Positions 40,877-62,604 of a stretch of 64,000 nucleotides of DNA are shown here, piece by piece. The translations under genes were made by a program, and so were the position numbers. Numbering within the stretch: the first letter of the stretch is position 1; the number at the start of each line of letters is the position of its first letter. Where the stretch lies: assembly GCA_020054495.1 (NCBI GenBank), contig JAHWGK010000010.1:1-64000 (forward strand), in the 5' to 3' direction. This DNA is from Thermoplasmata archaeon (GTDB lineage Archaea > Thermoplasmatota > E2 > DHVEG-1). The notes under the pieces are model-generated. The model did not search any database, was not told the origin of the DNA, and saw nothing but the letters and a program-made list of their open reading frames with translations.

Positions 40877-42273
40877 CAGTAGTTCGGCAAGTGAGTGATA
40901 CAAATTGACAATTGAATAACTTGTCGAATTCTTCTTTTATGTTCAAATTAGATATTTACATAGGATCACAGGAAATCGGCCAGTTCTAGATTGAAAAACC
41001 TGTTCTTTTAACCTAGCTTACGCTAACCAGATCGTTTGTTATCGTCCAAGAATTGAATCAGAAATAAAATCTTTAAATTCCTCAAGAATGATCACATATC
41101 CATCTTTATCCCAGCAGATTACAATGCTAAGTGTGATATTGCAGAGCTGCCATAGATTGTAGAGGAGTATGGAAAGCAATTGCAAAAGCAGCCGTATTGC
41201 ATAATTCCGTGAGCATGTTTTCCCACGGACTTCTTCTTTTACACGGTATCCTGTTTCTATACCCCAAACGACTTCGGTAACTATCTGCAATTTCCAATGC
41301 ATTACCTCTTGTTACAGGTATATTTGTTGCATAGGCAAAAGTGGTCCATTCATCATCTGGTTCCTTAGGCGGCTCAACAACAATGACAAAAGTGAATGTT
41401 GCAGAATCCTTGTATCGTTTAAGTGTATATTCAGCGGTCAATGAATAATGTTTTTCATATGGATGAGCTTGACAATTCTGTTTGAATTCCTGGATCATCT
41501 GATCTATCTTCTTGTTTCTTATTGCAGGGATTACAAATGGAGCAAAGAGTTCCTTTAATGCATTTATTGACTCAATGTTGAAGAACTCTCTATCCAAGAA
41601 CAACCTACTGATATCAACATGTTTTCTTGCCTCATTTACAAGAAAACGTATAATCTTCTTCTTAGAAGTAAATTGATGTAATGGTAAAGCAGCCAGTGTA
41701 AATCGTTTACCAGGTTCAACACATTCTAGGCTCGCATATCCATGCCCGAAATTTGTACCCCTTGCTCGTTTCATACCAAGGACATGACCATCTTTCTTTT
41801 TACCAAACCATGGAATTTTATGTTTATCTAAACCACACCATACTGTTCTGTTGAAAACATTATGTTCTTCAGCCTGTTTCAACAATGTCTGATTTAACTG
41901 TTGAAACACTGAGAACACTGTGTTTTCATTTAGTTTGTTAAGATGATAAAACACAGCATCACTAGATGGGCAGAAACCTTTTTTATCCCGTAATCTTTTG
42001 GAACTATATTCTATGAAGTTGTTATTTGAAACAGAGAAAACAACAGTGTTGATAATGTTCTTTTTTGAGTAGGTGCAGTTTTCTGCCATTGGTATCGGCA
42101 GACTGTTGACGAATTCTTTTCTGATAGATTTTTTAAGACATTTGCCTATATCTTTTTGTGTATGATGTGAGTGCATCTAGACATCCAAATTGTACTCATA
42201 TCATACACTCTCAAATAATTTTTATCAAAAAGACGAATTTGAGTTAGTCAAATTCTAGCTTGCCGAACTACTG
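40877..42273 (-). mobile_element. Insertion sequence with perfect 15-bp terminal inverted repeats
   Basis: CAGTAGTTCGGCAAG (40877-40891) and CTTGCCGAACTACTG (42259-42273) are perfect inverted repeats enclosing 1397 bp with one transposase gene. AATAAA occurs just outside both ends (3 nt off on the left), so a target duplication is possible but not certain. It landed in the gap between the promoter region of the giant protein and the 3' end of the tagged gene at 42313. The transposase type fits the IS4 superfamily, close to the archaeal ISH3-like group (inference). Confidence 0.88.
41039..42176 (-). pseudogene. IS4-superfamily (ISH3-like) transposase with a frameshift
   Basis: The intact frame runs from 42176 and carries CGLDKHKIPWFGKK (first Asp region) and SRLFLDREFFN (second Asp). 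At CGTTTGGGG (plus-strand 41262-41269) one extra T shifts the frame. Before it reads EIADSYRSR; the other frame continues WGIETGYRVKEEVRGKT, which restores the Y-x2-R-x3-E-x6-K signature with the catalytic Glu, and ends at 41039. As it stands the main frame lacks the catalytic Glu and stops at 41127. It is either a decayed copy, a programmed frameshift or an assembly error in a T/G run. Confidence 0.85.
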
Positions 42274-42312: not shown

Positions 42313-43566
42313 TTAATTTTGTAGTCCTAGTCGCATTATTAGTCGTTGTAGTATTGGAAACAGATTAGGATGACTTGTTAGGAAATTTAGGAATGGTGCG
42401 TTGATTACTCTGGCCTTTTTATAAGCATGAACATATGCCCAGTCATCATCCTTTACAATATAAGGCTCACAATCACATTGGGCTAAAGCCTCGGCATGGT
42501 TAGAATCAGTGCTACATTCTGGTCCTTCAACATGTGCCGTGAGGTTAATTACAATCTTCTGATTAGGTGATAAAGGTCCAGGGATTAACCAATATATTTC
42601 GTAAAAAGGTGGTTTATATTCGACTGAGTTGGGCTTTGGATCTGCACTGATATATTTTAGGCTATCATGCATTGTATCGTAAATGTTTATGTTAAATAAA
42701 TCACAGCATACTCCAGCATTTTGAATTATGATCTTAAATTTTGCATCTGTACATATTGGTAAATTTACAGCTGCAGGCTCAGAATCGGCTTGAACCCATT
42801 TTTCAAGACGCGGATCCCATACATATTTTTCGACATCGATGTTTGGATAACATTTTCTAGTTAACTGGAAACACATATCAGCGGGATTTCCTAGGACATC
42901 CTCTGAATCACTCCAATATGGAAAACCAAAATAATCCGATCCAAATACAGCTTGGTGCAGCAAGATCGGTTGATAATGACATCCCCACATAGACTGCGGG
43001 TATACAGAACCCTCACCCCAAATAGAAATCCAGAACTTATAACATCCTGGGAACATTATATTTTCTGGTAGATCAACAGACATCTCAAAGTATCCATCTC
43101 CAAGGTCTACCTTTTCGATCTCTTCCCAAGTATAGCAGAATGGCCCTGCAAAGCTAGGATCTTGAGGATGACTATCAGGTGCATTACCAGTACCATCATC
43201 GTTCATGAACGATATGCACCAATCAAATGGTTCAGGGTCACCGTTAAAGTAAGCACCAATCCAGTGCACATCACCTACTTCTGTATCTTCCTCAAAGTAG
43301 AAGTCATCTGCTGGATATGCATCAAGCGGATAATCTGGATCATACTGCGCGGCGAGCGAGTTATCATAATTCATTCCGTTGTCCCAGACAACAATTCCAT
43401 TTAGAGTCTGGGGACCGATTTGTCTATTTATAGTAGGATTTTCTGGGCATACAACTAGAAGTTGAGTATTATTGTTTATATGTGCTGTCACAGCAACAGT
43501 TGATAAAACTATACACAATGCTCCAAATAAAACACTTGCCTCTTTCAAAATATTTTTTTTATTCAT
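42313..43566 (-). CDS. Secreted Ig/DUF11-type surface protein with C-terminal tag
   Basis: 417 residues. A signal peptide (about 8-30) is followed by a beta-rich N-terminal domain (about 45-235, with TLNGIVVWDNGMNYDN and DDFYFEEDTEVGDVHWIGAY), which resembles domains of unknown function in other secreted proteins. A DUF11-like Ig domain follows (about 240-375, CTDAKFKIIIQNAGVCCDLF, ISADPKPNSVEY, HVEGPECSTDS). The C-terminus is the shared tag INAPFLNFLTSHPNLFPILQ with RLIMRLGLQN. No membrane helix. Promoter copy 1 lies upstream. The IS element inserted some 40 bp beyond its stop. Confidence 0.8.
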   Translation of the reverse strand: MNKKNILKEASVLFGALCIVLSTVAVTAHINNNTQLLVVCPENPTINRQIGPQTLNGIVVWDNGMNYDNSLAAQYDPDYPLDAYPADDFYFEEDTEVGDVHWIGAYFNGDPEPFDWCISFMNDDGTGNAPDSHPQDPSFAGPFCYTWEEIEKVDLGDGYFEMSVDLPENIMFPGCYKFWISIWGEGSVYPQSMWGCHYQPILLHQAVFGSDYFGFPYWSDSEDVLGNPADMCFQLTRKCYPNIDVEKYVWDPRLEKWVQADSEPAAVNLPICTDAKFKIIIQNAGVCCDLFNINIYDTMHDSLKYISADPKPNSVEYKPPFYEIYWLIPGPLSPNQKIVINLTAHVEGPECSTDSNHAEALAQCDCEPYIVKDDDWAYVHAYKKARVINAPFLNFLTSHPNLFPILQRLIMRLGLQN

Positions 43567-43623
43567 ATTTTTTTCTACCTCTCACTAACTATAAAATTAG
43601 CGTGGTTGTAATATATTATTTTC

Positions 43624-43692
43624 TTTTAAATGTATGCATAACAATCGTTAATTACAACAAAATGTTAATAAAAAAACTGATATGATTACATT
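43624..43692 (-). promoter_or_regulatory. Shared promoter/operator of the tagged-protein cluster, copy 1
   Basis: TTTTAAATGTATGCATA is followed by the near-palindrome TAACAATCGTTA (43639-43650), then ATTACAACAAAATGT and an imperfect downstream arm ATTACATTTTG. Read on the minus strand, the palindrome sits just upstream of the TATA element CATTTAAAAG. It precedes the gene starting at 43566. Confidence 0.8.
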
Positions 43693-43740
43693 TTGATTTC
43701 AATTTAAACAATTACTAAAAAAAGAAAAGAAGAAGGGGTT

Positions 43741-45009
43741 TTACAGTCTCATCAGTAATCTTTGTAGTATTGGAAACAGATTTAGATGCGACTCTATTTG
43801 TATATTATTATCCTTTTGCATACTATCTTTAAGGTTTTTACTAATTATCTTATCTAAAGAGCAAGCACCGATATAATTTTTAACAGGATCTACTAATGGG
43901 TAGTTGTCAATGTTACTAATCTCGATAACATATGGAGTAGTTCCAATCCCATTTGAGCCAGATGTTCCTGTATAATCATCCCAATAGTTGCCCATGTTGC
44001 TTGTGAAATATTTCCATTGGTAGAAGTAGTTTATTGGATTTGGCGAATTCCAGTTATTCAGACAAGTTTCATCAGTATAAGCGTTCACACTATTTCCAAT
44101 AAAGTCGTTGAGGTATATTTTGTTATCAGATGAGTATTCCCTGATGTTAATGCCATATTGATTATTTGATATATCATTGCAGGCTATTTGGTTGTTGCTT
44201 GGCTCAGAGAAGATATGAATACCATAAAAGTTATTTGATAAAATGTTGTTTTTTATTTGGTTGTTGTTTGACAACCTTGTAAGATAAATACCATAGTTAG
44301 TGTTTTCTGAGATTTCGTTGTTGATTATTTTATTTTCTGAAGACCAGAGGATAAAGATGCCTCTTGTGTTTTCAAAGATCTTGTTGTTTTTAATTTGGCT
44401 TTTATCCGAAGATGAGAGACGGATACCGTGCTCGTTTCCGAAGATCACGTTTTTGATTATTTCATTGTTTGATGATCCAGTTCCATCAATCACAATACCT
44501 TCTGCATCTGATCCTGTAATAGTAAATCCCTTTATCTTCACGTTATCAGCCATTATATAAAAGACAGCTCCATTTGGGTCTAAGGCCTGAACGGTTGTAG
44601 AAGCAGAACCCCATAGGGACATGATGGTTACACTCACATCAAACACAAATACATTTTCCACATAAGTTCCAGGCAACAATACAAGGACAATATCGCCAGA
44701 AGATGAAGCGTCTACTGCTTCTTGAATTGTTGGATATGGGAATGGCACTCCTCTTATAGTAGATGGAAAAGGCTGCTGTAATTGATTAAATTTTGTTGAT
44801 GCATGTGAAACCAACATTACATCAGAGAAAAAACTATTACGGTTCCCGTTTGAAACCTTCAACTGATCAATTTCATTTATGTTGCTTATATTTTTCGCAT
44901 CAAAATCCAAATTATTTTTTATACTTAAATTTTCCATCCCAGCAACAGGTAAAACAGTAGCGGCTATCAACAGCGTCGTTACTAAAATACCTACTATTTT
45001 TGTTTTCAT
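43741..45009 (-). CDS. Secreted beta-helix (NosD-like) protein with C-terminal tag
   Basis: About 422 residues from the ATG at 45009, behind the shared GGGAGGTAGGAAAAAT site; the frame opens at a GTG (45027) inside that site. The signal peptide is the cluster type KTKIVGILVTTLLIAATVLP. The beta-helix (about 85-380) starts FPYPTIQEAVDASSSGDIVL and has N-x-I repeats, ending MGNYWDDYTGTSGSNGIGTT. The C-terminus is ESHLNLFPILQRLLMRL, the shared tag with Leu in place of Pro and without the LGLQ end. Confidence 0.85.
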   Translation of the reverse strand: MKTKIVGILVTTLLIAATVLPVAGMENLSIKNNLDFDAKNISNINEIDQLKVSNGNRNSFFSDVMLVSHASTKFNQLQQPFPSTIRGVPFPYPTIQEAVDASSSGDIVLVLLPGTYVENVFVFDVSVTIMSLWGSASTTVQALDPNGAVFYIMADNVKIKGFTITGSDAEGIVIDGTGSSNNEIIKNVIFGNEHGIRLSSSDKSQIKNNKIFENTRGIFILWSSENKIINNEISENTNYGIYLTRLSNNNQIKNNILSNNFYGIHIFSEPSNNQIACNDISNNQYGINIREYSSDNKIYLNDFIGNSVNAYTDETCLNNWNSPNPINYFYQWKYFTSNMGNYWDDYTGTSGSNGIGTTPYVIEISNIDNYPLVDPVKNYIGACSLDKIISKNLKDSMQKDNNIQIESHLNLFPILQRLLMRL

Positions 45010-45065
45010 ATTTTTCCTACCTCCCACTAATTAACAAAATTAGCAGGATTGTAATATATTATTTT

Positions 45066-45113
45066 GTTTTAAAAGTATCCATAACAATCGTTAACTAAAT
45101 CAACAAAATTTGT
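45066..45113 (-). promoter_or_regulatory. Shared promoter/operator, copy 2
   Basis: TTTTAAAAGTATCCATAACA with the near-palindrome TAACAATCGTTA at 45082-45093, then a diverged downstream part (CAACAAAATTTGTAA). It serves the gene starting at 45009. Confidence 0.75.
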
Positions 45114-45179
45114 AAAAAAATTAGAAAGAAAAAAAAGAGAAGTTTTTAGATTTTTAGTAGACCAGCAATATTCCGGGTA

Positions 45180-46205
45180 TTAGGATGACTCGTAATCTGC
45201 AACAATGTACCAATGACCATTAAAATTACCATCACTGACCACAATGATGGAATCACATGGCTCTAGGGGGAATTCTGGAAAACCATTACAATCATCTATT
45301 AAATCGCCACTAGATGGTATGACATAAATAATTTCACCATAGTTGCCATCAATAAACTTGATTGTATATTCTCGACCGGGACAAGGATCGGCAGGTGGTA
45401 GTTTTACCCAGCCAACAGTATCTGGGGGATCCAGCTTCGCAAAGATGACGCTATCGTCATCAGTAATATCATAGGGAGTCAGCCAACTGGAACCTGCAAA
45501 AACGGTTGTAATGGCCGTGGCCACAGGACCATTGACATGTAATTTCGTAGTTGGATTCACCGTTCCGATGCCGACATTGCCGGTGTCGCCTCTGATAATC
45601 ATATTTAAAACTTCAGTAGCTACACCACCAGTAATGGTTTCATGCACAAACTCGATACTACCTGAAGGTTGAGTATTATCAGTATCATCGCTTGAGAATA
45701 TCCTTACGCCCCCATGTTTCCAGCCATTTGAATTTGGGGTTATAGAAATCCAACCACCTCCAATTGCTGCATTACTCTCAGCCTTGAGGCTAAGCGCACT
45801 ATAGCCTGTTCCTATGATTGTATTATACTCTCTACTTGTTAAATTCAGGTATCCCTTAAGGTCATATTTAAATTCTACATTCCCACCAACCACTTCTAAT
45901 TTACTTGTAGGATTTTTCGTTCCAATGCCGACATTACCACCATACTCCGCGCCAATGGCATACATATCTCCTCCAGGCCAGTAATGCCAATCTTCATCTA
46001 CAATACGCGATTGTTGTATCCAAGGGGTTTTATAAGGTGGTGGTTGAAGTGTAAGTATCCGATTACCAAAACTAGATGAATCATCAGATTCGGTTGGTGT
46101 TTCCACATCTTGGTTTCTTCCAACATTCATGTTCCCTGTTACTGGTAAAACAGCAGTTGCAATCAACAGCGTCATTACTAAAATACCTACTATTTTTGTT
46201 TCCAT
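45180..46205 (-). CDS. Secreted tail-fibre-like protein; C-terminal tag lost by frameshift
   Basis: 341 residues with the cluster-type signal peptide ETKIVGILVMTLLIATAVLP. Two copies of NVGIGTxNPTxKLxVxG (near residues 90-107 and 212-228) are typical of phage tail-fibre and trimeric adhesin shaft domains. The C-terminal part (about 240-341, SSWLTPYDITDDDSV to HWYIVADYESS) resembles a small beta domain. Just before the stop, another frame reads ITSHPNTRNIAGLLKI, whose TSHPN equals the start of the shared tag, with 12 identical bases (AGTCATCCTAAT) to the gene at 42313. A small indel has probably removed the tag. Confidence 0.78.
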   Translation of the reverse strand: METKIVGILVMTLLIATAVLPVTGNMNVGRNQDVETPTESDDSSSFGNRILTLQPPPYKTPWIQQSRIVDEDWHYWPGGDMYAIGAEYGGNVGIGTKNPTSKLEVVGGNVEFKYDLKGYLNLTSREYNTIIGTGYSALSLKAESNAAIGGGWISITPNSNGWKHGGVRIFSSDDTDNTQPSGSIEFVHETITGGVATEVLNMIIRGDTGNVGIGTVNPTTKLHVNGPVATAITTVFAGSSWLTPYDITDDDSVIFAKLDPPDTVGWVKLPPADPCPGREYTIKFIDGNYGEIIYVIPSSGDLIDDCNGFPEFPLEPCDSIIVVSDGNFNGHWYIVADYESS

Positions 46206-46261
46206 ATTTTTTCCTACCTCCCACTAATATAAAATTAGTAAAATTGATATACAATATTTTC

Positions 46262-46332
46262 TTTTAAATGTATGCATAACAATCGTTAATTACAACAAAA
46301 TGTAAGAAAAAAACCGATATGGTTACATTTTG
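46262..46332 (-). promoter_or_regulatory. Shared promoter/operator, copy 3
   Basis: TTTTAAATGTATGCATAACA with TAACAATCGTTA at 46277-46288. A perfect 10-bp inverted repeat follows: CAAAATGTAA (46296-46305) and TTACATTTTG (46323-46332), 17 bp apart. It precedes the gene starting at 46205. Confidence 0.82.
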
Positions 46333-46417
46333 ATTTCAATTTCAACATTACTAAGTTTTTTAAAATAAACCATAAATAAAAATAAAGAAAAAAAGAGAGG
46401 TAGGATTTGTTTTTTTT

Positions 46418-48352
46418 TTATTGCAGCCCTAAACGTAATAGTAGCAGGCGTTGTAGTATTGGAAACAGATTTGGATGCTGCTGTAAAAATGTTCCTATTA
46501 ACAGATAAACAGGTCTTGTCTTTTCAAAAGAGTTTTCCTCGGTTTTCTCCATTGTTTCGAGAATCCATACGCAGTCTTGCCCTATGATTGCAGTACCACC
46601 ATCGTCCTCATTGAGTTCACCGGTTATTATAAGTGGAATTGTTAATCCTAGTCCATCACTAAGACCTAGGGTTTCTACTACATCTCGAGTTTTAAATTTG
46701 AGTGTAAGGTCCATTATGCCATCGCCATTGAGATCGTGACAGCCACATTCTTCTTCCCCTGTATAAAGCGTAGCGACATCTTCGTAACTCCAGCGAAGCG
46801 GTGGAACACCTTCTTCATATCCCTCACGTGTTAAAAGAATCGTCTCTGGGTCAATAGTGGTAACATCGAAATCTTCTGTACCACAGATAGCAACTGGCAA
46901 TACACCTTTTCCCTTAGGATTAATTGGGTTCGGACAGGAACCAGGTTTGATATCCACATCGACATTTATCACAGGTGGCGGTGGAGTTATTTTTTCTAAT
47001 GTCAGTAGTGCCCATACCGTTGATAGAAGTTTTCCAGACATGTAACCTGGGTGTCCATCTGTCCAGACATAACATGGTGAACTAGGCCATGAACCATCTG
47101 GATTCTGATCAGCTAAAAGAATTGTCGCAAGTTCATCAAACCAGTCATGCTCCAGTATATTATCGCCATCAAGATCAAGGAGGTTTTCCCCACTATACTC
47201 TAAACCTTTCATAAGACAGTACATTGCTTGATAATGATTGCTCAACCCCATATCTTCATCTACTAAGCCATCTCCATCGTTGTCCGCCCAATCATATGGA
47301 TCTTCATCAACTAATCCATCCATGTCGTCATCAATTCCAGCATCTCCTCTAAATCCAGGTTGAAGATTTGCATCATTCCAATGCCTCTCAATATAATCCA
47401 TTGCATACTGGAAACGTAGAATACTTGAGTCATCTCCATAGAACGTCATTTCAAAGATTAAGTTACCTGTTTTGAGCTCATTAACCCAGCTAGATGCAAC
47501 CGCGTATCCAGAGCCACCATCAGGTGTAGGTTCCCCACCGTCATCTCCTGCGCCTTGATCGTTTTGTATATAATCAATCCAGACATCGAGCTCGTCTTTA
47601 ACCCACTGCGGAACATTACAACCAAATCCTTCTGCAGCAGCCAGTCCAAGGTAGGCATATCCTGAATTTGAGTTGTCAGCACCCCAACATGCATTGTCTT
47701 GAGCACCATATGAATAACCGCCTTCATAGGTTCCAACATCTGCCTGTGCAAAAGCAAGCCAATCAACGCAATCTTGAGCGATTTCACCAAACGTATCAGG
47801 ATTCATATCACCATCGTAATCTATTAATCCCTCGTTTATATGATTTGGATCCTCACTCGCTGCAAGAGCCATTAGACAAATTCCAGTACTATATATAGTA
47901 TAAGGGGAAAAGTAAATTCCATAGCCATTTACTCTTGTATCAGGATCATCATCTGTTCCACTTGCCCCTAACGTATGATCTTGATTACCAATCGTTTGTT
48001 TAATTGCATAAAGTGGGTTTCCTGCTCCGTCAACGCTAAATAAATATTTCCATCCATCAATAACATTGGTGGCATATTCATAGTAATCCGGCTCTGCTGA
48101 ATCTGTTTCAAAAGGATCCAATTCTAATTCAATCGCACGATCCTGAAGCTTAATGAGAACAAACCCAGTACGTGGCACGTCCTGCCATTTTCCATCAACT
48201 GGATCTTGCTGTGATACAAGCCAAGCAATTCCATTAGATATAGCTAGTTCTATGTCAGCTTCATCAACAGCACTTACATCTGATGGTACTATCGAAAAAA
48301 CGGTCAACACCAGCGTCAAACAAACTACTATTGAGATAGATTTTCTTTTCAT
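46418..48352 (-). CDS. Secreted alpha/alpha-toroid (prenyltransferase-like) protein with C-terminal tag
   Basis: About 644 residues from the ATG at 48352, placed 6 nt after TTGGAGG; the frame opens at 48379. A signal peptide (about 1-28) is followed by a helical repeat domain of the squalene-cyclase/terpenoid-toroid type (about 30-465: ISNGIAWLVSQQDPVDGKW, LADQNPDGSWPSS, GKLLSTVWALLTLE), interrupted by a calcium-like Asp loop (DDDMDGLVDEDPYDWADNDG). A domain common in secreted proteins follows (about 470-590, DIKPGSCPNPINPKGKGVLP). The C-terminus is GTFLQQHPNLFPILQRLLLL plus RLGLQ, the shared tag with one extra Leu. Catalysis is not evident. Confidence 0.82.
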   Translation of the reverse strand: MKRKSISIVVCLTLVLTVFSIVPSDVSAVDEADIELAISNGIAWLVSQQDPVDGKWQDVPRTGFVLIKLQDRAIELELDPFETDSAEPDYYEYATNVIDGWKYLFSVDGAGNPLYAIKQTIGNQDHTLGASGTDDDPDTRVNGYGIYFSPYTIYSTGICLMALAASEDPNHINEGLIDYDGDMNPDTFGEIAQDCVDWLAFAQADVGTYEGGYSYGAQDNACWGADNSNSGYAYLGLAAAEGFGCNVPQWVKDELDVWIDYIQNDQGAGDDGGEPTPDGGSGYAVASSWVNELKTGNLIFEMTFYGDDSSILRFQYAMDYIERHWNDANLQPGFRGDAGIDDDMDGLVDEDPYDWADNDGDGLVDEDMGLSNHYQAMYCLMKGLEYSGENLLDLDGDNILEHDWFDELATILLADQNPDGSWPSSPCYVWTDGHPGYMSGKLLSTVWALLTLEKITPPPPVINVDVDIKPGSCPNPINPKGKGVLPVAICGTEDFDVTTIDPETILLTREGYEEGVPPLRWSYEDVATLYTGEEECGCHDLNGDGIMDLTLKFKTRDVVETLGLSDGLGLTIPLIITGELNEDDGGTAIIGQDCVWILETMEKTEENSFEKTRPVYLLIGTFLQQHPNLFPILQRLLLLRLGLQ

Positions 48353-48590
48353 TTTTTCCTCCAATTTTTTTTCTTTCATCTACATTTTTTACCCTGCGAG
48401 GTAGGGCACACAAGGTTTGTTCCGCCTCGCTCGTCAAAAACAAATCGTACATTTCAAATATCTAATCGGTTTCTTAAGATAATACCAGCTTTAAAAAAAA
48501 GCTATAGAACAAGCTACCTTTTTCTAATTCAAACAATATCCATTTCTTTTTATCTACCTCCCCAAAAGATACAAACATTTGTAATAAATT
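48353..48590 (-). other. Unusually long leader with a GC-rich hairpin
   Basis: Between the shared promoter (copy 4) and the start at 48352 lie about 240 bases, where the sister genes have about 60. GCGAGG (48396-48401) and CCTCGC (48425-48430) form a perfect 6-bp stem in an otherwise AT-rich region. The usual GGGGAGGTAG ribosome site is present near 48570 but leads only to ATG-GAT-ATT-GTT-TGA. So the original start region seems to have been displaced by inserted sequence, or the leader is regulatory. Confidence 0.5.
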
Positions 48591-48591
48591 A

Positions 48592-48669
48592 TTTAAATTT
48601 AAATGTTTGCATAACAATTGTTAATAGCAACAAAATGTTAATAAAAAAACTGATATGGTTACATTCTGA
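48592..48669 (-). promoter_or_regulatory. Shared promoter/operator, copy 4
   Basis: TTTAAATTTAAATGTTTGCA is followed by TAACAATTGTTA at 48612-48623, here a perfect 12-bp palindrome, then CAACAAAATGTTAA and GGTTACATTCTG. It serves the gene starting at 48352. Confidence 0.8.
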
Positions 48670-48755
48670 TTTCAATTTCAACATTACTAAGTTTTTTAAA
48701 ATAAACCATAAATAAAAATAAAGAAAAAAAGAAAAGAAGTAGAATTTGGTTTTTA

Positions 48756-50183
48756 TTAATTTTGTAGTCCCAATCGCATTATTAGTCGTTGAAATATTGG
48801 GAATAGATTAGGATGACTTTGTAGGAAGTTTAGGAATGGTATGTTGATTATTTTGTTTCTTGGCATATCTACTGTTAATGTTGCCTCAGGACCAACTAAA
48901 CCTTCTGTGTCTTCAGCTGAAGCTGTAATGATATAAGTTCCTTCTTCACTCCAAGTGTGTTGTACTTGTACATCTGTACCCGAGGGGTTAAAAGCAGTCG
49001 TTTCAGCGTCGCCATCGTCCCAGTCGATAATGTACCTGACATTATCACCATCAGGATCCACTGCATTAAATACATATGTATGAGGAGTTCCTACTTCCCC
49101 ACTTGTTGGACCATCAATACTTGGTGCTTCTGGCGGTTCATTTTCAATTGGGCAGATGACAACTGCAAACTCAACGAAGGTCCAATCAAAATCTTCATTA
49201 GGAGGATAACCAGTGACTCTCCATTCGAAGTCAAGGTTTGAACATGGACACTGAAATCGAACACCATAAATGTCATGTGAAACAAATTGTGCATCGTTAT
49301 GATTTGATGAACTTGGATCTTCAATATCAAAGAATGGGTCGCTAAATGCTATTTGAATCGGTATGCCTTCCGTTACCCCTGCGCAAGTAACATAATGTGT
49401 TACTCTCTGTATACAAGTACCATCAACATCATCATATTGTCCTAGCTGTAGAATAACATTCTGACTCCGCATCACCTCATCTTTTATAAAACCCCAGGTT
49501 GGTGCTTCAAATACATTCACCTCAAACGTATCATCGAGACCAGTGTCAACAAGCCAGTCATTAATAGCATTCTCCATATTATTAACTGGGGTATTACCAT
49601 TGATGTTGGTTTCCATTGCTATAGCCAAATTTTCAATGAGGAGCGGAACATTGTCTGCCGCATGGTCATCTCCAACCCCATAATCTTCAACAAGTGGAAA
49701 TTGATCTTCTCCATCACCAGGTGTCCCATCTGGATCTGCAAATTGAGAATCAAACCACCAGAAACAATTGGCTACTGATACTGGTCCACAAAACGCCCAC
49801 ATATACTCATCGTCGGGTTGTTCCCATGTATCAAGGTAACAGTCTGGTCCTGGTGCCACAATAACATCCCCTGGATTTACTGGGTTTCCTACAGCGACAA
49901 CCTGTATGTCATCCCCAATTGCTGGTGTATCTGCGATACCATTTCCTCCAATAATAGGTTCACATACACTCCCCCACCACACAGGTGGTTGCGATTGATT
50001 GAAATCAGGCATACCACCAGGAATATGCGGTGCATAGTTTGGAAATGGTTCTTTCCAAAACCATTCCTCCTCATTTGAAACAGCTTTACTCTCGCATTCT
50101 TCGTTTATCATTCCTACCACTGGTAAAACAGCAGCGGCTATCAACAGCGTACAAACTAAAATACCTACTATTTTTTTATTCAT
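48756..50183 (-). CDS. Secreted cysteine-peptidase-like (C39-type) protein with PKD domain and C-terminal tag
   Basis: 475 residues with the cluster-type signal peptide NKKIVGILVCTLLIAAAVLP. A papain/C39-like domain spans about 100-340: Cys132 in FCGPVSVANCFWWFD, His263 in VTHYVTCAGV, followed by IAFSDPFFD. A PKD domain follows (about 348-445, PSIDGPTSGEVGTPHTYVFN). The C-terminus is MPRNKIINIPFLNFLQSHP then NLFPIFQRLIMRLGLQN, the shared tag. It starts 5 nt after the stop of the gene upstream, so the two form an operon. Peptidase activity is likely but unproven. Confidence 0.8.
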   Translation of the reverse strand: MNKKIVGILVCTLLIAAAVLPVVGMINEECESKAVSNEEEWFWKEPFPNYAPHIPGGMPDFNQSQPPVWWGSVCEPIIGGNGIADTPAIGDDIQVVAVGNPVNPGDVIVAPGPDCYLDTWEQPDDEYMWAFCGPVSVANCFWWFDSQFADPDGTPGDGEDQFPLVEDYGVGDDHAADNVPLLIENLAIAMETNINGNTPVNNMENAINDWLVDTGLDDTFEVNVFEAPTWGFIKDEVMRSQNVILQLGQYDDVDGTCIQRVTHYVTCAGVTEGIPIQIAFSDPFFDIEDPSSSNHNDAQFVSHDIYGVRFQCPCSNLDFEWRVTGYPPNEDFDWTFVEFAVVICPIENEPPEAPSIDGPTSGEVGTPHTYVFNAVDPDGDNVRYIIDWDDGDAETTAFNPSGTDVQVQHTWSEEGTYIITASAEDTEGLVGPEATLTVDMPRNKIINIPFLNFLQSHPNLFPIFQRLIMRLGLQN

Positions 50184-50188
50184 ACTTT

Positions 50189-51496
50189 TTATCGCCCTAA
50201 ATTAAATATCTGAAATATTCTAAACACGTTTGGAAATAATTCAAATACCCTAAATTTCAACAGACTTTTACCGTAGTTCGATGGCGCGTTCCCATTGGAA
50301 TCTGTCTTTACTAGCCAAAGGTCATGATAGAGACCTGAAGCTTTGAATCCAGATAAAATATAGCCACCATCGTTGGTCTGCTTAACTGATAAGGCTATGT
50401 CAGAACCTCTTCCACCATAGAATATAATCCATTCCTCTTCACCTTCACTGTTTGTTTTAATCAACATTGCATCTAATTTAATATTATGTGGGCCATCTCC
50501 ACAAATAATATAGCCACCTTCGTTTGTCTGTTGAATTGAGTTTCCCCTCTCCCAACCCAATCCGCCGAAGGTTTTATCCCATAATAACTCTCCATTGCTA
50601 TCAGTTTTTATCAGCCATACATCATAGGAACCAACACCTTTAGATTCTGTTTCACCAGTGATAATATAGCCACCATCATCAGTTGTTAATACTGAATGCC
50701 CATAATCATATCCAGCTCCTCCAAACGTTTTATCCCATAGTAATTCACCATCACTATCAGTTTTAATTAACCAAAAATCAAATTCACCAGCACCATATGA
50801 TGCAGTCCAACCAATTAGGATATATCCACCATCTGGGGTCTGTTGAACAGATTCTCCTCTATCGTAATCATTTCCTCCAAAAGTTTTATCCCATTCAATA
50901 TTTCCCTCAGAATCAGTTTTAACTAAATAAATATCTCTTTCCCCAGCTCCATAAGAAACAGTTACTCCTATAAGGACGTAACCACTATCACTTGTCTGCT
51001 TCACGTCATAGGCTGTATCAAAATCATTGCCACCAAAAGTTTTATCCCATAATTTATTCCCATCTGCATCAATTTTAATAAGCCAAATGTCACTCCCCCC
51101 ATTACCATATGAATAAGTTTTTCCTGCTATGATATAACCTCCATCATTTGTATGTTGAATCGAAAGTCCAAGGTCGGTCTTATCTCCTCCAAAAAATTTT
51201 TCCCACATCATATTTCCATTGATATCAGTTTTAATCAACCAAATATCTTCTTCACCAGAACCAAAAGATAAAGTATCTCCACAAACAATGTAACCACCAT
51301 CAGAAGTTTGTAAAACTGAATTACCAACATCAGATTGATGACCACCAAAAGTCCTCATCCATTTATCACCATTTGTAAGAGGACTATTTTTATCAGTATC
51401 TATGCTAATAGATATCTCATTTACTTGCCCAACAACATGAATTGCAGCGACAATCAACAGCATACATACAAAAATACCTACTATTTTTGTTTTCAT
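50189..51496 (-). CDS. Secreted propeller-like repeat protein with variant C-terminal tag
   Basis: 435 residues with the cluster-type signal peptide KTKIVGIFVCMLLIVAAIHV. About seven repeats of some 51 residues follow, each QQTxDGGYIxxG ... DxWLIKTDSxGxxxWDKTFGG, probably a beta-propeller. The protein at 17476-18768 has the same repeat. The C-terminus LLKFRVFELFPNVFRIFQIF plus NLGR is a clear variant of the tag (Leu-Phe-Pro-x-x-x-x-Ile-x-Gln). Promoter copy 5 precedes it, and the cysteine-peptidase-like gene follows 5 nt downstream. Confidence 0.83.
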   Translation of the reverse strand: MKTKIVGIFVCMLLIVAAIHVVGQVNEISISIDTDKNSPLTNGDKWMRTFGGHQSDVGNSVLQTSDGGYIVCGDTLSFGSGEEDIWLIKTDINGNMMWEKFFGGDKTDLGLSIQHTNDGGYIIAGKTYSYGNGGSDIWLIKIDADGNKLWDKTFGGNDFDTAYDVKQTSDSGYVLIGVTVSYGAGERDIYLVKTDSEGNIEWDKTFGGNDYDRGESVQQTPDGGYILIGWTASYGAGEFDFWLIKTDSDGELLWDKTFGGAGYDYGHSVLTTDDGGYIITGETESKGVGSYDVWLIKTDSNGELLWDKTFGGLGWERGNSIQQTNEGGYIICGDGPHNIKLDAMLIKTNSEGEEEWIIFYGGRGSDIALSVKQTNDGGYILSGFKASGLYHDLWLVKTDSNGNAPSNYGKSLLKFRVFELFPNVFRIFQIFNLGR

Positions 51497-51551
51497 CTTT
51501 TTTCCTACCGCCCACTAATATAAAATTAGTAAAATTGATATACAATATTTT

Positions 51552-51615
51552 CTTTTAAATGTATGCATAACAATCGTTAATTACAACAAACGGTAATAAA
51601 AAAACGCTTGTTTTT
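51552..51615 (-). promoter_or_regulatory. Shared promoter/operator, copy 5
   Basis: TTTTAAATGTATGCATAACA with TAACAATCGTTA at 51568-51579, then TTACAACAAACGGTAA. The downstream inverted-repeat arms are diverged here. It drives the operon 51496-48756. Confidence 0.78.
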
Positions 51616-51649
51616 TTACATTCTAATTTAAAATTTCAAATAAAACAAA

Positions 51650-52006
51650 TTGAAGTTAATGGGGTCTTGGATACCTAATTGCATTAAAGAGTTATTAAAG
51701 CCATAATAAATTTAATATATAAATTGGGCTATAATTAATTAAAGGAGTTGATCTCTTGAACATATATTTTTCGATCACCCCAACCCCCCTCAACACAATC
51801 TCCCTTAAAAGGGCAGTATGCAGATAAAATGGGGTAAAACATATTCAACCTGTCACATACAGTGACCATATCTGGGGCCGTTTGGCCTTGGGGCGATTCC
51901 TTCGCTTTTTTATCATTCTCGTATTATCAATAGCTTGGCATCAACTTAAAACCCTAAAAGACAGATTAAAAATAAAAAGAAACAAAGGAACGAAAAAGAG
52001 ATACTT
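51650..52006. other. Intergenic region with GC-rich inverted repeats, no gene supported
   Basis: GTCAC-ATACA-GTGAC (about 51855-51869) is a perfect 5-bp hairpin, and GGCC-GTTT-GGCC (about 51878-51889) lies close by. TTAATATATAAATT near 51713 is TATA-like. The composition is richer in G and C than nearby gaps. It may hold a small RNA or the remains of a mobile element. Confidence 0.3.
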
Positions 52007-52741
52007 TCAACACTTTAGTTTCTTTTCAATGTACTTCATTATTTTAACATGTTCTTTGATATTAATGCCTACGTTCATAGCTAGGATGTGTTCCAACCTA
52101 TCTCTTTGACTTAATCTTCCAATGAGTTTTGGTATGCGCCTTAGCACCATTTCTGCCCAATCATCATTTTCTTTAATCACTTCAACTACTTTATCAACAT
52201 CACAAACATCCAGTAAAACCTGTGAATCTAGATTATTTTTATAATCCATAGGAAGACCAAGCTTTACAGCAGCCATATGTTCTGCAGGCGGTACCTTCAC
52301 CATTACTTTGTTTCCGCCCATATGATAAGATATAGTTCTAGGTTCGTAGTCAGTCAAGCTAAATTCAAAATAATGAGGGGTTTGGAATTCTTTTATTCTT
52401 GGTCCTGATATTTCAATTCTCAATTCTATTTTTTCTATATCATTTTTCATGTTTTCAGGAATCTTGATTCTTGGATCATATTTATGATAGAATTGGACGC
52501 CCCATTCATTTCTACGCATATTCATTCCAACACTTGATAATTTAGACTCAATTTCCTTCATTTTACTAATCTCTGCCACTCCATCAATATCTAATGTGTA
52601 ACGACCATGCTTATCCCCAATCAAAGCTCTAACAGCCCAGCCTCCTATCACTATAATGTCATCTGCTACATACTCTAAAACAGACAAAGAAGAATCTTCG
52701 ATATCTTCCTTTACCAGATCGGGAAAGTCTTCAAAATTCAT
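52007..52741 (-). CDS. Nucleotidyltransferase-fold protein of the second AbiE-like module
   Basis: 244 residues. IIVIGGWAVRALIGD and YTLDIDGVAE give the Gly-Gly-Trp and Asp-x-Asp elements of a nucleotidyltransferase. VPPAEHMAAVKLGL and LDVCDVDKVVEVI follow, as in nucleotidyltransferase toxins of the AbiEii/DUF6036 type. Its ATG overlaps the stop of the upstream winged-helix gene by 4 nt (ATGA), as in the module at 32-34 kb, although the two transferases are only distantly similar. Confidence 0.72.
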   Translation of the reverse strand: MNFEDFPDLVKEDIEDSSLSVLEYVADDIIVIGGWAVRALIGDKHGRYTLDIDGVAEISKMKEIESKLSSVGMNMRRNEWGVQFYHKYDPRIKIPENMKNDIEKIELRIEISGPRIKEFQTPHYFEFSLTDYEPRTISYHMGGNKVMVKVPPAEHMAAVKLGLPMDYKNNLDSQVLLDVCDVDKVVEVIKENDDWAEMVLRRIPKLIGRLSQRDRLEHILAMNVGINIKEHVKIMKYIEKKLKC

Positions 52742-53757
52742 AGCGCTCTAACTCCATGTTTAATTGCTCCAATATCCAAGTAAAGATCCACATTCCACTT
52801 CTTTGTGTATTTTTCTTCCCATCCAGATTTCCCATAGTTCATCTCATCTTTTAAAAAGACATATTTTCTTTTTGAAATTTTTTTATGAAAATTCTTAACT
52901 ATTTCATTTGGAACAATTCCTCTCTTAATATCGTTAATGATGTCAAGATAGCATCCAATCTGATTAACAAGATTCTTTTTAATGGCAAGTTGAAGTAAAG
53001 CATCATAATTGATATTTTTATATGCTAGAATTTTGATGCAAACATCCTCAACACCTTCCGAAGTCATTAATTTATTGATAAAAATCTCCTCAAGAGTTTG
53101 TTTTGTAGCAACGCTTTCAAGAATTGCAATTTTATCTTTTTTCCCCTTTATCATAAAACCAGTTCTTTTAATTGTTAAACTTTCATCGATCTTGTCATAA
53201 AGGATTTTTTCAATATTATCTGGAGTTGTAATAATCTCCTCAAAAGGAGTTGCCCCTGGCGTATAAATTCTATCATCTGCATCTGTTCTTTTTAACATTG
53301 TGCCTAGTAATACGTTTAGTGGATGGTCTTTCACTTTTACTGCAATGATTGGTTTTCTTTTTTCAAATTTTACCAATCCGTAGCTAGAAAGAACTTTCAG
53401 GAATTTTCTCACAGATTTTTCAGAGAGTTTGGTTTTTTGTGAGATATCTTCAACATTATTAAAGAAATCAAGCGTTCTCCATATTAAAAAAGTATTTTCC
53501 CTTAGAGGGAGCTCAGGATCTACTCCATAACTCAATGATTTGATGAAAAATTCTTTCAACTTTTGATTCTTGTAATCCTTTGAGATGTCCAATCTTGTTT
53601 CTCCATTGGTTTTAATTTTAACGATTTTTGCATCTTTTAACATATCCTCAATTGCATTATAAATGGATGCTGGCGAGTAAGGTAACCTTTTAATAACGTT
53701 ATTAATTGTCTGTGGTTTGATGCAAATTAAACCAAAGATTGCTGATCTGATATTCAT
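52738..53757 (-). CDS. Winged-helix protein of the second AbiE-like module
   Basis: 339 residues. The first winged helix is about 1-60 (TINNVIKRLPYSPASIYNAI), the second about 90-150 (DISQKTKLSEKSVRKFLKVL, SYGLVKFEKRKPIIAV). The C-terminal half is helical and mixed. It sits upstream of the transferase gene with a 4-nt overlap, the order typical of antitoxin-toxin pairs. A 9-bp inverted repeat flanks its promoter, consistent with autoregulation. Confidence 0.65.
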   Translation of the reverse strand: MNIRSAIFGLICIKPQTINNVIKRLPYSPASIYNAIEDMLKDAKIVKIKTNGETRLDISKDYKNQKLKEFFIKSLSYGVDPELPLRENTFLIWRTLDFFNNVEDISQKTKLSEKSVRKFLKVLSSYGLVKFEKRKPIIAVKVKDHPLNVLLGTMLKRTDADDRIYTPGATPFEEIITTPDNIEKILYDKIDESLTIKRTGFMIKGKKDKIAILESVATKQTLEEIFINKLMTSEGVEDVCIKILAYKNINYDALLQLAIKKNLVNQIGCYLDIINDIKRGIVPNEIVKNFHKKISKRKYVFLKDEMNYGKSGWEEKYTKKWNVDLYLDIGAIKHGVRAL

Positions 53758-53820
53758 AGTAAACGTACCTTAATTATTGAAAAGCATTTAAATGTTTCCA
53801 TAATTTTTTTCCGTTTACTA
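53757..53820 (-). promoter_or_regulatory. Inverted-repeat operator flanking the TATA box of the second module
   Basis: TAGTAAACG (53757-53765) and CGTTTACTA (53812-53820) are a perfect 9-bp inverted repeat, centres 55 bp apart. The palindromic TATA element CATTTAAATG lies between. The inner arm touches the start codon. Same architecture as 33701-33750 but a different sequence. Confidence 0.72.
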
Positions 53821-54002
53821 GCCAGCATATAAATAATAAATGTTCTTACTGTGAATGAATCAAAATAAATTATTTTGTTCAATGTTATTGAAAACATCTA
53901 ATATAGAAAATGAATATAAAAAATATAGGAAAATAAGAAAAATAAAAAGAAATTAAAAATAAAGGAATAACCTTAAACAAAAGAAAAAAAGAAGGATTGG
54001 TT

Positions 54003-55304
54003 TTAGAGTTTAAGGAATCGTTGCAGTAGCTGGAATATCATTGGATGCTGTTGTATGAAATCTAGGAATGGTGTGTTAATTGCTCGGTTCCTTGGCATAG
54101 TAACTTCAAGTTCCCCCCAATCACTTTCAGCACCATATTTATCAATTAATTTTGCTCTAATTGTAAAAGTTCCTTGTTCACTCCAACTATGAGTAAGTGT
54201 AAAACCTCCTCCTGATTCTGCAAATCCTTCATCAATGCCTCCATCGTTCCATTCTACGTGATAAGTCATATCATCACCCTCAGGATCAACTGCAGTAAAA
54301 TCATAATCATAAAATTCTAGGACATTGCCACTTAATGGACCATCAATAGTTGGTTTTGTTGGAGGGTCATTTCCATTTATCTGCATTAATGGATATCTGT
54401 CTTGATTATTTCCTGCTGATATATTATAAGGAGTATCTCCTATACCATCTCCGTCATTATCTATTCCATCATAATCATCCCAGAAATTACCTCCAGTAGG
54501 ATAACCGTTATCCCAATCATTAATACATGAATCTCTAGCATTTTCATCATTATCATAGAAAGTATTATGGAAAAATAAATTATTATTTGATGATTCTCTT
54601 AAAAAAACACCTCGTTTGCCATTATTGGAAATATTGTTTCTATTGACATAGTTATAATAACTTGAATTATAAAAACAGATACCGTTACCACCATTTATAG
54701 TTACTATATTATTAATAAAAGTATTATTATTAGAATGGTCTAAAAATATTCCATTATCATAATTAAAAGTAATAAAGTTATTATAAATATTGTTACTTTT
54801 TGAATTGAGATGCAAAACAATTCCTTCATCATTGTTTAATAAAATATTATTTGAAATATCACAAAAAGTGACATTATCTAATCTAATACCACCTCTTAAA
54901 CCAGCACTCTCATTTGTGCCTTCTATAGTAAATCCCATAATAATAACGTTATCTGATTTTACATCAAAAACATGATTATTTGCATCAATTGCATGAATAA
55001 TTGTATCATAAGGGTTTTGACTATAGGATTTAATTATTAATGATAAATTAACAATCACATTTTCATAATAAATACCACTAAATACAATAATAGTATCCCC
55101 AATACTAGCGTTTCCAATGGCTTCTTGAATTTTACTATAGTTTCCAGGTCCAGACCCCCCAACATATAAAGTAGTTCCACGACCATTAATTTTAGAAATC
55201 GTTGTGTTTTTTAAATTAATAGTAAATCCAGTAACAACGTTTGCTCCAACTAAAAGTATTATTATTCCTATTACCAGTCCTTTTCTAAAAACAAAATTGT
55301 TCAT
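54003..55304 (-). CDS. Secreted beta-helix/PKD protein with C-terminal tag
   Basis: 433 residues behind AAAGGAGGTAG. A signal peptide (about 8-27) is followed by a NosD-like beta-helix (about 45-310: GNYSKIQEAIGNASIGDTII, many NNI repeats, FWDDYDGIDNDGDGIGDTPY) and a PKD-like domain (about 315-405). The C-terminus is MPRNRAINTPFLDFIQQHPM then IFQLLQRFLKL, the tag in a shorter form. The MPRN linker is shared with the protein at 48756-50183. Promoter copy 6 lies upstream. Confidence 0.85.
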   Translation of the reverse strand: MNNFVFRKGLVIGIIILLVGANVVTGFTINLKNTTISKINGRGTTLYVGGSGPGNYSKIQEAIGNASIGDTIIVFSGIYYENVIVNLSLIIKSYSQNPYDTIIHAIDANNHVFDVKSDNVIIMGFTIEGTNESAGLRGGIRLDNVTFCDISNNILLNNDEGIVLHLNSKSNNIYNNFITFNYDNGIFLDHSNNNTFINNIVTINGGNGICFYNSSYYNYVNRNNISNNGKRGVFLRESSNNNLFFHNTFYDNDENARDSCINDWDNGYPTGGNFWDDYDGIDNDGDGIGDTPYNISAGNNQDRYPLMQINGNDPPTKPTIDGPLSGNVLEFYDYDFTAVDPEGDDMTYHVEWNDGGIDEGFAESGGGFTLTHSWSEQGTFTIRAKLIDKYGAESDWGELEVTMPRNRAINTPFLDFIQQHPMIFQLLQRFLKL

Positions 55305-56288: not shown

Positions 56289-59200
56289 GTGAAAGGAGAG
56301 AAACGCAGAAAGGTAAATAGATTACAGTATCAATTTTTTATTATAGGATTAACATTAATGATGGTTCTTCCGACTATTGTTTTTATTACCCCTGTAAAAG
56401 CTGATCCCTCAATTGATGGGTCTTCTGTTGTTTGTAAGATTTCTTTTGAACCTCCCATATTGACTGATGTTCAAATAAGCAGTGAAATATTTACTCAAGT
56501 AAATATGCCTAATTGTATTTCGCAGGCAAAGCCTGGAGATCCTGCACTTCCAGTGTTTCCGGCTCGTATTCTTATACCGCAGGGTAAAACAGTAAGTAAT
56601 ATTCGTATCAAAAATAGTGTGAGGGTTGAGATTAACCATGACTTTGTTAGTAAACCTGTTGCTCCTCAACAGGAGTTATATCCCTTCAGTGAGATGCCAA
56701 ATAATGCACCTTTTGTAAAAAATGATGCTGTGTATGATTCCATTAATCCCGTGTTTGATACTATTTATGACGAAGGTGAGATTGGTTTCTGCCGTGGTTT
56801 TAGTATTTTGACAGTTTATCTTTATCCAGTGCAGTATGTTCCAAAAACTGGGTGTTTGTATTATTTTAAAGATATAACTATCACGGTCGAGTTTGATAGT
56901 TTTGCAACATTTGCTTGTAACAACGATAACAAGCATCTTCGCAATAGTAAACAGGATCAAGATGCGATTAGTAACATGGTAGAAAATCCAGTAAGCATCA
57001 TCTCGTATGATCCAGATAACGATGGAGGATCTAGTGGTCCTCCAACGTTTGGCGGTGGAGGAGCAACATTTGGTTATACCGCAGGTATCTGTGATCCAGC
57101 TGATAGTTATGAGTATGTAATTATTACAAATGATGCATTGAAAGATACAACTGGTTATTCGTATAACTGGTCTGATTTATTAAATCACAGACAGAGTTTC
57201 AGTGGGCTTAGTGGAATTATTGTAACTGTTGAAGAAATTGATGCATGCACTGATTATTGGAATATTACTTCCTTATACAATGATACTCAGGCGCATGTTC
57301 GTGAGTTCTGTAAGGATGCATATGAGGACTGGGGCATGGAGTATCTGTTGTTAGGCGGTGATTGCGATAGTGACGGCAGTCCAAACGTTGTTCCATATAG
57401 GTTGTTTGAAGATCGTTTGGAAACTGATACATATGATACAATGCCCTGTGATATGTATTATAATCACCTTGATGGTGATTGGTACTATACAGGATCTGGA
57501 GGAATGTGGGGTGGAGGAAGAAGTAGTGGTGTTAACGATCCATATGCTGAATTTTATCTTGGCAGGTTGACAGTAATTAATGCAGAGCAGATTTCAAATA
57601 TCGTCCAAAAAATTATTTGGTATGATACAGCTGAGCAAGATAGTTGGTTTGGTAGTTCTGCATTTTTCGGAGGTGCCCTTGGTTGGGATGCAACATCAAA
57701 GCAGTATCTTGAGGAGATAAGAGAAGGTGATGGTTCATTTTCTGAAAATGAGGGATTCGAGGAGTGGAATTCTGCTTATTCTCAATACTCAATTGATACA
57801 TCTGAACGACTTTACGATGCTGATCTTGGATCATCCACTATATATCAAGCAGCTGTTAAACAATCCATCAATGATGATAATGCATCTATCATCAATCATT
57901 TAGATCATGCATCATCAACTTCGGCATTAAGTATGACATCTTCTATTATTCGTTCGTTAACAAACACCAAACCTTTCATTGCTTATTCTCAAGGATGCTT
58001 GAGTGGACGGTTTATTTCCGGTGTAACAACAGAGCAGATGTTGACTGTTGAAGATGGAACTAACCAAGCATTAGCTGTTGTCCTTAACACAGGTTATGGT
58101 TATGGAAGTTTATCAACTACTGCTGGTGCGAGTCAGCATCAGATGAAATTCTTTTGGGATTATTTCTTTAACGCATCAGCTGTAAATCAAAATAACTGGC
58201 AGTTGGGCAAAGCTCAAGCGTATTCCAAGGATAAAATGTCAGCGTATGTTGATAGTCTCAGCTGGAGTCATGCGTGGTGTTATGTTTGGTATGGCAGTCA
58301 TCTTTTCGGTGACCCCGCGCAGACATTAAGAGTTGTTGATTCAAATAATGCAGTTGATTTAAGCAGTGAAAATCCAAGTAATGAAGCATCTAATGTTTCT
58401 ATTATTAACGTTACACTTTCTGTAACAATTGAAGATCCTGAAGGAGAACCTTTTAATTGGACTATTGAAACAATTCCAAATGTCGGTAGCAACTCAGGAA
58501 ATTATGAATCAAACGGCAGTAAATCTTGTAATATTTCTGGTTTAAGTTTTGAAACAAGTTATACTTGGTTTGTAAATTCAACAGATGGAAACAGTTGGAC
58601 AAATGAAACATATTCTTTTTCCACAGTAGCAGAATCAGTAAACAACTCACCAATATTTTCTAGTCCGTCTATTGAAAATGGTTCAACAGGAGTCAGCATT
58701 AACACATCTATTGTTAATATAACAATAAAAGACCCTGAAGGAGAACCTTTTAATTGGACTATTGAAACAAGTCCAAACATTGGAAACAACTCAGGGAACA
58801 ATGCATCAAACGGCAGTAAATCCTGTAATGTAACAGGACTTAATTATTCTACTACATATTACTGGTTTGTAAATTCAACAGATGGGAACAGTTGGACAAA
58901 TGAAACATATTCTTTTACCACAGTGGATATATATGTGAATAACCCGCCATATGCCCCTAGTAGTCCTAGTCCATCAGATGATGCTACTGGGATAAGCATT
59001 TCTGCAGATCTAAGCTGGACTGGTGGAGATCCAGATGGAGATAATGTCACCTATGACGTGTACTTTAGCTCAGTAAATCCACCATCCAAGGTTGCTAGTA
59101 ATCAATCAGGCACTTCTTACGATTGTGGATCGATGAGTTATAATACCCTCTATTATTGGAAGATTGTTGCGTGGGATGATAACAATGCTTCGAATACAAG

Positions 59201-60259: not shown

Positions 60260-60763
60260 ATGAGGATGAAAAAAAAGAAGCTTATAGTATTGGCTCTTAT
60301 TATCGTAATTGCTTCAGCAGGGATTGGTACCAGTTATGCAATTGCAGTAGATGCATTTAACACGAATGGAGATAGTGAATATTGGTATGATGTAGCTTTT
60401 ACTTTTGTTTCCACATCTGATAATGAATATGTCAAAGATGTTGCTTTTGTTGATGCAATAATTATTGATGATAACAATATTGAGGTATCTTTAACCAATG
60501 CTTATCCCGGTTATATTGCATATATTGATTTTACAATCACTAACACTGGTATAGACCCTATTATTGTTGATGCGGTAACAATTAATCCTTATAATACAGT
60601 GGCTCTTGATGTTCAAGTAGTTGATGTCATTGCAGGAACAATTCTCTATGTAAATGGCGATATAATCGATGGACAAGTAACAATCGAAGTGTTACAGGGT
60701 GCAGCCCAGGGAACAATTTATCCGGTTACTATTGACATTGGTTTTGCTGACTTTATTGAATAA
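60260..60763 (+). CDS. TasA/camelysin-like secreted protein with SipW-type signal peptide
   Basis: 167 residues; the ATG at 60266 is an alternative start. The signal KKLIVLALIIVIASAGIGTS with YAIA is of the SipW-dependent type. The mature part has the family hallmark NAYPGYIAYIDFTITNTG, also found in the next three proteins. TasA-like proteins form donor-strand-exchanged filaments in Bacillus, and archaeal relatives form bundling pili (established for AbpA-type proteins). Here a filament-subunit role is inferred. The 3' end of this gene is duplicated at 62.1 kb. Confidence 0.75.
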   Translation: MRMKKKKLIVLALIIVIASAGIGTSYAIAVDAFNTNGDSEYWYDVAFTFVSTSDNEYVKDVAFVDAIIIDDNNIEVSLTNAYPGYIAYIDFTITNTGIDPIIVDAVTINPYNTVALDVQVVDVIAGTILYVNGDIIDGQVTIEVLQGAAQGTIYPVTIDIGFADFIE

Positions 60764-61170: not shown

Positions 61171-61191
61171 CAGAAAGGAGGTGAAAAGAAA

Positions 61192-62584: not shown

Positions 62585-62604
62585 TGAAAGGAGGAAAAAG
62601 AGAT

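Follow-up and report, generated by a model that had tools for sequence, protein, structure and literature searches.

A C-terminal tail shared by unrelated exported proteins of Thermoplasmatota archaea: a candidate sorting or retention tag without a membrane helix

Results

A cluster of exported proteins with a common C-terminus

The window analysed here, a 64,000 nucleotide stretch of Thermoplasmata archaeon DNA, is contig C11 of a draft Thermoplasmatota genome of 2.72 Mb, and it contains a cluster of genes whose products differ in their middle domains and share a C-terminal tail of ~35 residues, with the consensus [MT]P[RK]N[KR]xxNxPFLxFL[EQ]xHPN[LA]FPIL[RQ]xLLxRLGLQ. Five near-identical C-termini and a weaker sixth had been pointed out here in a sequence-only reading, and all six are present, at the positions given there, at the ends of minus-strand open reading frames (ORFs). 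An N-terminal signal-like hydrophobic segment was found in each of the six ORFs, and also in a further ORF of the same cluster (45180–46205) that carries no tail. Genes and tails are listed below; tail E-values refer to profile A3, which was built from 40 tails of the source genome trimmed to begin at MPRNK, with the 43741 and 50189 tails left out.

42313..43566, minus strand: exported protein, middle part weakly DUF7901-like (Pfam DUF7901 below cut-off), signal segment MNKKNILKEASVLFGALCIVLSTVAVTA, full-length tail
42316..42423, minus strand: tail YKKARVINAPFLNFLTSHPNLFPILQRLIMRLGLQN of gene 42313 (E=2.1e-17)
43741..45027, minus strand: exported NosD-like beta-helix protein (NosD E=7.5e-35) with a shortened tail
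43744..43797, minus strand: shortened tail ESHLNLFPILQRLLMRL of gene 43741, second helix only (E=1.5e-5, not among the A3 seeds)
46418..48379, minus strand: exported protein with tail, no confident family; weak, non-significant likeness to cyclase repeats
46421..46528, minus strand: tail FEKTRPVYLLIGTFLQQHPNLFPILQRLLLLRLGLQ of gene 46418 (E=4.4e-12)
48756..50183, minus strand: exported protein with a C-terminal PKD domain (E=2.5e-9) and full tail
48759..48866, minus strand: tail MPRNKIINIPFLNFLQSHPNLFPIFQRLIMRLGLQN of gene 48756 (E=4.3e-19); in the model, two short helices that are not part of the PKD fold
50189..51496, minus strand: exported beta-propeller protein with DUF5122-like repeats; weak, doubtful tail at 50192–50263
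54003..55304, minus strand: exported NosD beta-helix (E=3.4e-25) and PKD protein with tail
54006..54098, minus strand: tail MPRNRAINTPFLDFIQQHPMIFQLLQRFLKL of gene 54003 (E=6.7e-14)

A first profile, made from the six window tails with that of 50189 among the seeds, gave 74 matches at E≤1 across the genome, nearly all of them 0–6 residues before a stop codon. Using A3 we obtained 99 matches in the source genome at E≤1 and 84 at E≤0.001, and the 43741 tail was recovered despite its absence from the profile. Given these match counts, their position near stop codons and the near-absence of matches from ~345 other genomes of the phylum (see below), the tail is not a chance resemblance; the original observation is confirmed, and the set of proteins concerned is much larger than first noted. 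The weaker form ascribed to the 50189 protein fared less well: the ending is present, and a paralogue (C165:17603) has the same form, KSLLKxRxFELFPNxFR, but it matched only the profile that it had helped to seed and not A3, from which it was excluded, leaving its membership doubtful and unconfirmed.

Position of the tail and nature of its carriers

Among the 68 matched ORFs of the source genome the tail lies ≤12 residues from the stop codon in 65, and ≤17 residues from it in two of the remaining three. A few carriers extend shortly past the tail, and one match (C227) is truly internal. Export was scored throughout by a hydrophobicity rule, a heuristic, rather than by SignalP. On this basis a signal-like segment is present in 62 of the 63 complete tailed ORFs (≥150 residues) compared with 160 of 354 untailed neighbours (p=4e-18), and the lone ORF lacking one starts within an apparent broken signal sequence. 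A comparable result was found in a one-contig relative (G007), sampled in evenly spaced stretches picked regardless of tails, where 10 of 12 tailed ORFs were scored as exported vs 70 of 259 others (p=1e-4). The frequency of lipoboxes did not differ between tailed (3/62) and untailed (4/117) exported proteins. The tail is thus neither equally frequent in cytoplasmic proteins nor found equally at internal positions; it is confined to exported proteins and, the one internal match aside, is C-terminal, as are generic sorting tags.

The middle domains are indeed unrelated, as had been proposed for the window, where they comprise DUF7901-like, NosD, PKD and DUF5122-like propeller proteins and one without a confident family. 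Pfam searches of 66 tailed proteins added more, with PKD in 40, C25 peptidase in 10, PQQ or ACSF4-type beta-propellers in 7–8, S8, C1 and M28 peptidases and NosD in two each, and many families represented singly.

Sequence conservation, selection and predicted structure

The comparison covered 175 matched sequences, including a few that a pattern scan had picked up by chance. The most conserved positions were P2 (91 %), L15 (82 %), P19 (90 %), F22 (94 %), P23 (86 %), L25 (90 %) and L32 (91 %). Pairwise synonymous (pS) and non-synonymous (pN) differences were 0.76 and 0.32, respectively, while a codon-shuffled control gave 0.80 and 0.64; the tail peptide is therefore under purifying selection at the protein level. 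Tails differ in length and exact C-terminus and follow a common layout, in which a basic linker is succeeded by two short predicted helices separated by a conserved P-N-x-F-P turn.

The tail had been described as basic and amphipathic: with a mean net charge of +3.3 it is clearly basic, and it is amphipathic only to a moderate degree, the helical moment (0.64) being modestly above that of shuffled tails (0.56). The absence of a membrane helix held for every tail, in that the mean hydropathy over 19 residues averaged 0.67 with a maximum of 1.48, none reaching the transmembrane threshold of 1.6. AlphaFold2 models of 13 PKD-tail sequences showed a confident PKD fold, a linker and helices at residues 104–112 and 116–126. 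Among solved structures the best match to the PKD-tail fragment was 4XED (97 residues aligned, TM-score 0.96 by 4XED's own length), from Thermoplasmatales archaeon SCGC AB-540-F20, the chain of which stops at TLEVTMPK, i.e. at the start of the tail. As the modelled PKD fold is complete without the tail and 4XED ends at the tail boundary, the tail is, as modelled, a separate two-helix unit outside the PKD fold. No sequence family in NCBIfam, Pfam or the PDB matched it at a meaningful score, and searches of papers turned up no description of it; that it forms part of a known globular domain finds no support in these searches.

Restriction to one archaeal family

Of 45 genomes from the same taxonomic family, 38 have the tail by profile A3 (E≤0.001), with copy numbers from 0 to 84 over the family; among ~345 genomes elsewhere in the phylum, only one does (G240, two matches at E≤1e-4). 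A second variant of the tail with an FPLLExLL ending (A6) enlarges the set within the family and occurs in one genome only outside it. We also ran a degenerate DNA pattern, coding for HPNLFPIL with Q, R, K or a similar residue after it, against 257 Gb of bacterial and archaeal genomes; of the 41 stretches returned, those in which the tail ends an ORF came exclusively from records labelled Thermoplasmatales, Thermoplasmata or Thermoplasmatota. The other pattern matches, including all bacterial ones, one Nitrosopumilus assembly and all nine viral stretches, were rejected because they lie outside genes, are internal or differ from the tail in some other way. G240 belongs to the same class (family f11), and its two matches (best E=4e-9) may reflect gene transfer or a binning error.

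The source organism of 4XED has been counted among the genomes of Marine Benthic Group D (MBG-D; Thermoprofundales) (PMC6461988), and for this reason the tail-bearing family is probably MBG-D.

Exchange of tails between genes

DNA comparisons indicate that recombination at gene 3′ ends swaps or adds tails between genes, because tail DNA is shared between genes with unrelated upstream DNA and because orphan tails occur. In the window, genes 42313 and 48756 are 90 % identical over the last 60 nucleotides and 97 % over the first 40 nucleotides past the stop, compared with 33–35 % upstream. Tail DNA is 85–98 % identical between further genes of unrelated upstream DNA (C122:2648/C185:11662 and C66:8755/C204:62326), and the shared stretch sometimes extends beyond the stop codon. 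Orphan tails of 21–67 residues, some of them directly behind the stop codon of another gene, in tandem or out of frame, look like remnants. At C44:22684–22917 of the source genome (G000, L032) a peptidase-like gene is followed, just past its stop, by two tandem tails, stacked remnants of 3′-end replacement.

Alternative anchors and candidate enzymes

For most PKD proteins sampled in six tail-free or tail-poor relatives (G019, G020, G023, G032, G036 and G041) the C-terminus is a membrane helix accompanied by basic residues, and several of these ends carry PGF, e.g. TPGFELIFVILSIAIFYVVRRR. As each of these genomes holds 19–63 PKD matches, they do not lack candidate carriers. Similarly, C25-family relatives in the source genome end in either the tail or a membrane helix (window 56289–60086). 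An inverse count based on NCBIfam TIGR04126 (PGF-CTERM) was unusable, this model being so unspecific that it matched in 11 of 14 control genomes.

Co-occurrence with one particular transpeptidase, secretion or modification gene had been suggested as a check, and none was found among four known enzyme classes. Six of 13 tail-rich genomes contain archaeosortase (PF09721), as do four of 16 tail-poor ones (Mann–Whitney p=0.076). The enzyme was undetected in seven genomes with 20–49 tails (G002, G004, G007, G027, G034, G061 and G062), all incomplete drafts by marker count, of which the one-contig genomes G002, G007, G027 and G034 have a marker completeness of 64–89 %; it was present in G003, G009, G014 and G019 despite their 0–5 tails. 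Sortase was found in 0 of 45 family genomes (the control was positive in three bacteria), and rhomboid and CPBP proteases are near-universal and mostly single copy in tail-rich and tail-poor genomes alike, although either family may still have a dedicated role. No recurring neighbour family around tail genes in the fetched regions gave a candidate machine. The proposal of a sorting, anchoring or secretion signal read by one shared machine is supported in its first part, the tail being C-terminal, limited to exported proteins and attached to unrelated domains; the shared machine stays putative, as none of the four classes significantly tracks tail count.

Other shared C-termini and further features of the window

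Another shared C-terminus, of the approximate form RPRxLPKPIFGxxxxIPWIxFDWxPAxEPYDI, was seen on NosD-like exported proteins in the source genome (C66, L035; C177, L057; L217), in G007 (L182, L184 and L194) and in the tail-free genome G023 (L230). At C66:2974 and C177:14452 an end of this type is immediately followed by an out-of-frame tail. A further recurrent exported C-terminus, GFGxTxITVTA...GFVLLFFIxVxPGGG or AFVLGPFIIII, occurs in G007 (L183, L190, L195 and others) and at C44:20209–22614 of the source genome (L032), and is possibly a second tag or a small terminal domain.

In the window the tailed gene cluster is followed immediately downstream by a transposase-like ORF (41127–42176). 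A series of small proteins with signal segments (60260–63934) has SAGYALW...DxSVETG in common, six ORFs of the contig clustering together; we take these to resemble the TasA/camelysin type. Two gene pairs (32136–33697 and 52007–53757) each combine a winged-helix-like regulator with a nucleotidyltransferase-like protein, an arrangement reminiscent of AbiE-type toxin–antitoxin systems.

Discussion

We consider that the tail is probably a C-terminal tag for sorting or retention that does not span the membrane and is recognised by a shared partner at the cell surface. Under this reading, tailed proteins would leave the cytoplasm via an N-terminal Sec-type signal peptide, predicted here by the hydrophobicity rule, and a common cell-surface partner would bind the tail and hold or position the protein there. 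The tail would do the job of the C-terminal membrane helix or PGF-CTERM anchor of relatives, and the tag spreads among unrelated genes through 3′-end recombination. That the tail acts at the surface, that its partner is specific and that it docks non-covalently and is not cleaved, we infer. A more specific version, put forward tentatively and with rather less confidence, is a dedicated archaeal sorting system without a transmembrane anchor, in which one putative surface receptor or secretion complex would recognise the P-N-x-F-P two-helix tail and handle many MBG-D extracellular peptidases and adhesin-like proteins.

Several observations weigh against a recognised tag. No partner or enzyme was found for the tail among the classes searched, and the trend of archaeosortase with tail number is weak and non-significant. 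The two tail helices, of 9 and 11 residues, are modelled at a modest predicted local distance difference test score (pLDDT) of about 58–69. Several genomes of the same family without the strict tail still export PKD proteins, and hence the tail is dispensable or strongly diverged in them. Lastly, much of what was observed would also follow from a generic amphipathic helix that binds membranes.

This last point leads to the strongest alternative, less likely in our estimation, namely that the tail, once exported, attaches by itself to the outer leaflet of the membrane or to the surface layer through its two cationic amphipathic helices, with neither a dedicated receptor nor an enzyme. The positive charge, the lack of any transmembrane-level tail, the moderate helical moment, the variable length and exact C-terminus, and the lack of a co-varying enzyme among the four known classes all suit such a self-acting anchor. 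However, near-invariant P, F, P and L residues in the face of saturated synonymous change exceed what generic membrane binding needs, and the helical moment is barely above that of shuffled tails. These near-invariant residues suggest a single recognising machine, which a self-acting amphipathic anchor would contest.

A processing signal for an archaeosortase-like enzyme or another known C-terminal transpeptidase or protease appears improbable. Such signals, as with PGF-CTERM and MYXO-CTERM, are likewise C-terminal, limited to exported proteins and found on many substrates per genome; the tail, however, has no tripartite motif, membrane helix or basic cluster, archaeosortase is undetected in seven tail-rich genomes (incomplete drafts) and present in four with few or no tails, no sortase is found, and rhomboid and CPBP occur at any tail number. 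More improbable still, and disfavoured, is a functionless by-product of recombination, in which repeated 3′-end DNA is copied between genes: the high identity of tail DNA over unrelated upstream DNA, sometimes past the stop, and the orphan tails behind other genes' stop codons would follow from it, but not the purifying selection on the peptide where synonymous sites are saturated, the limitation to exported proteins or the conservation over many genera. That the tail is no more than the end of a PKD or other globular domain is the least credible reading, for although about 40 of 66 carriers have PKD, often with the tail directly behind, it is also found behind NosD, beta-propeller, DUF7901-like and other domains, the modelled and solved PKD folds end before it, and PKD proteins of tail-poor relatives lack it.

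The recognised tag that we favour resembles several known systems without coinciding with any. LPXTG signals require a membrane helix and a basic cluster, and no sortase exists in the 45 genomes. MYXO-CTERM/myxosortase and GlyGly-CTERM/rhombosortase share with LPXTG/sortase and with the tail the design of a C-terminal tag borne by many proteins and served by one machine; rhomboid and CPBP, however, number about one per genome here irrespective of tail count, and both signals need a membrane helix and basic cluster (PMC11980579; PMC6219818). The PGF-CTERM/archaeosortase A system of haloarchaea and others is similar in that a short region of homology at the C-terminus marks many unrelated exported archaeal surface proteins, and PGF-CTERM-like ends occur on PKD proteins of tail-lacking relatives, but its order is a PGF motif, a hydrophobic segment and positive residues (PMC7157517). 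The tail, in contrast, has no PGF in the 175-sequence consensus, no NCBIfam CTERM match in any of 40 tails, no transmembrane segment and no significant tracking by archaeosortase, and by its architecture it is outside the tripartite CTERM families.

The C-terminal domain of type IX secretion in Bacteroidetes likewise marks exported enzymes, including C25 (gingipain), without a membrane helix. That domain is a beta-sandwich of about 70–100 residues, unlike the archaeal tail of ~35 residues modelled as two helices, and no type IX family was matched. Encapsulation peptides of bacterial microcompartments and encapsulins are short C-terminal helical peptides on a flexible linker that dock cargo to a shell; their cargo is cytoplasmic, unlike the tailed proteins with their export signals. 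The tail matches no catalogued sorting signal, and its architecture is new to the family catalogues searched.

We know of no account of how MBG-D archaea export and hold extracellular peptidases. These archaea are among the most frequent in global sediments and have genes for extracellular peptidases including C25 (PMC6461988). A tag on dozens of exported proteins, C25, S8, C1 and M28 peptidases among them, offers a handle on the secretome of these uncultured archaea, and the per-genome tail counts turn the search for a partner into a defined phylogenetic-profiling problem. The tail suggests that they have a way, not yet described, of putting enzymes on the cell or outside it.

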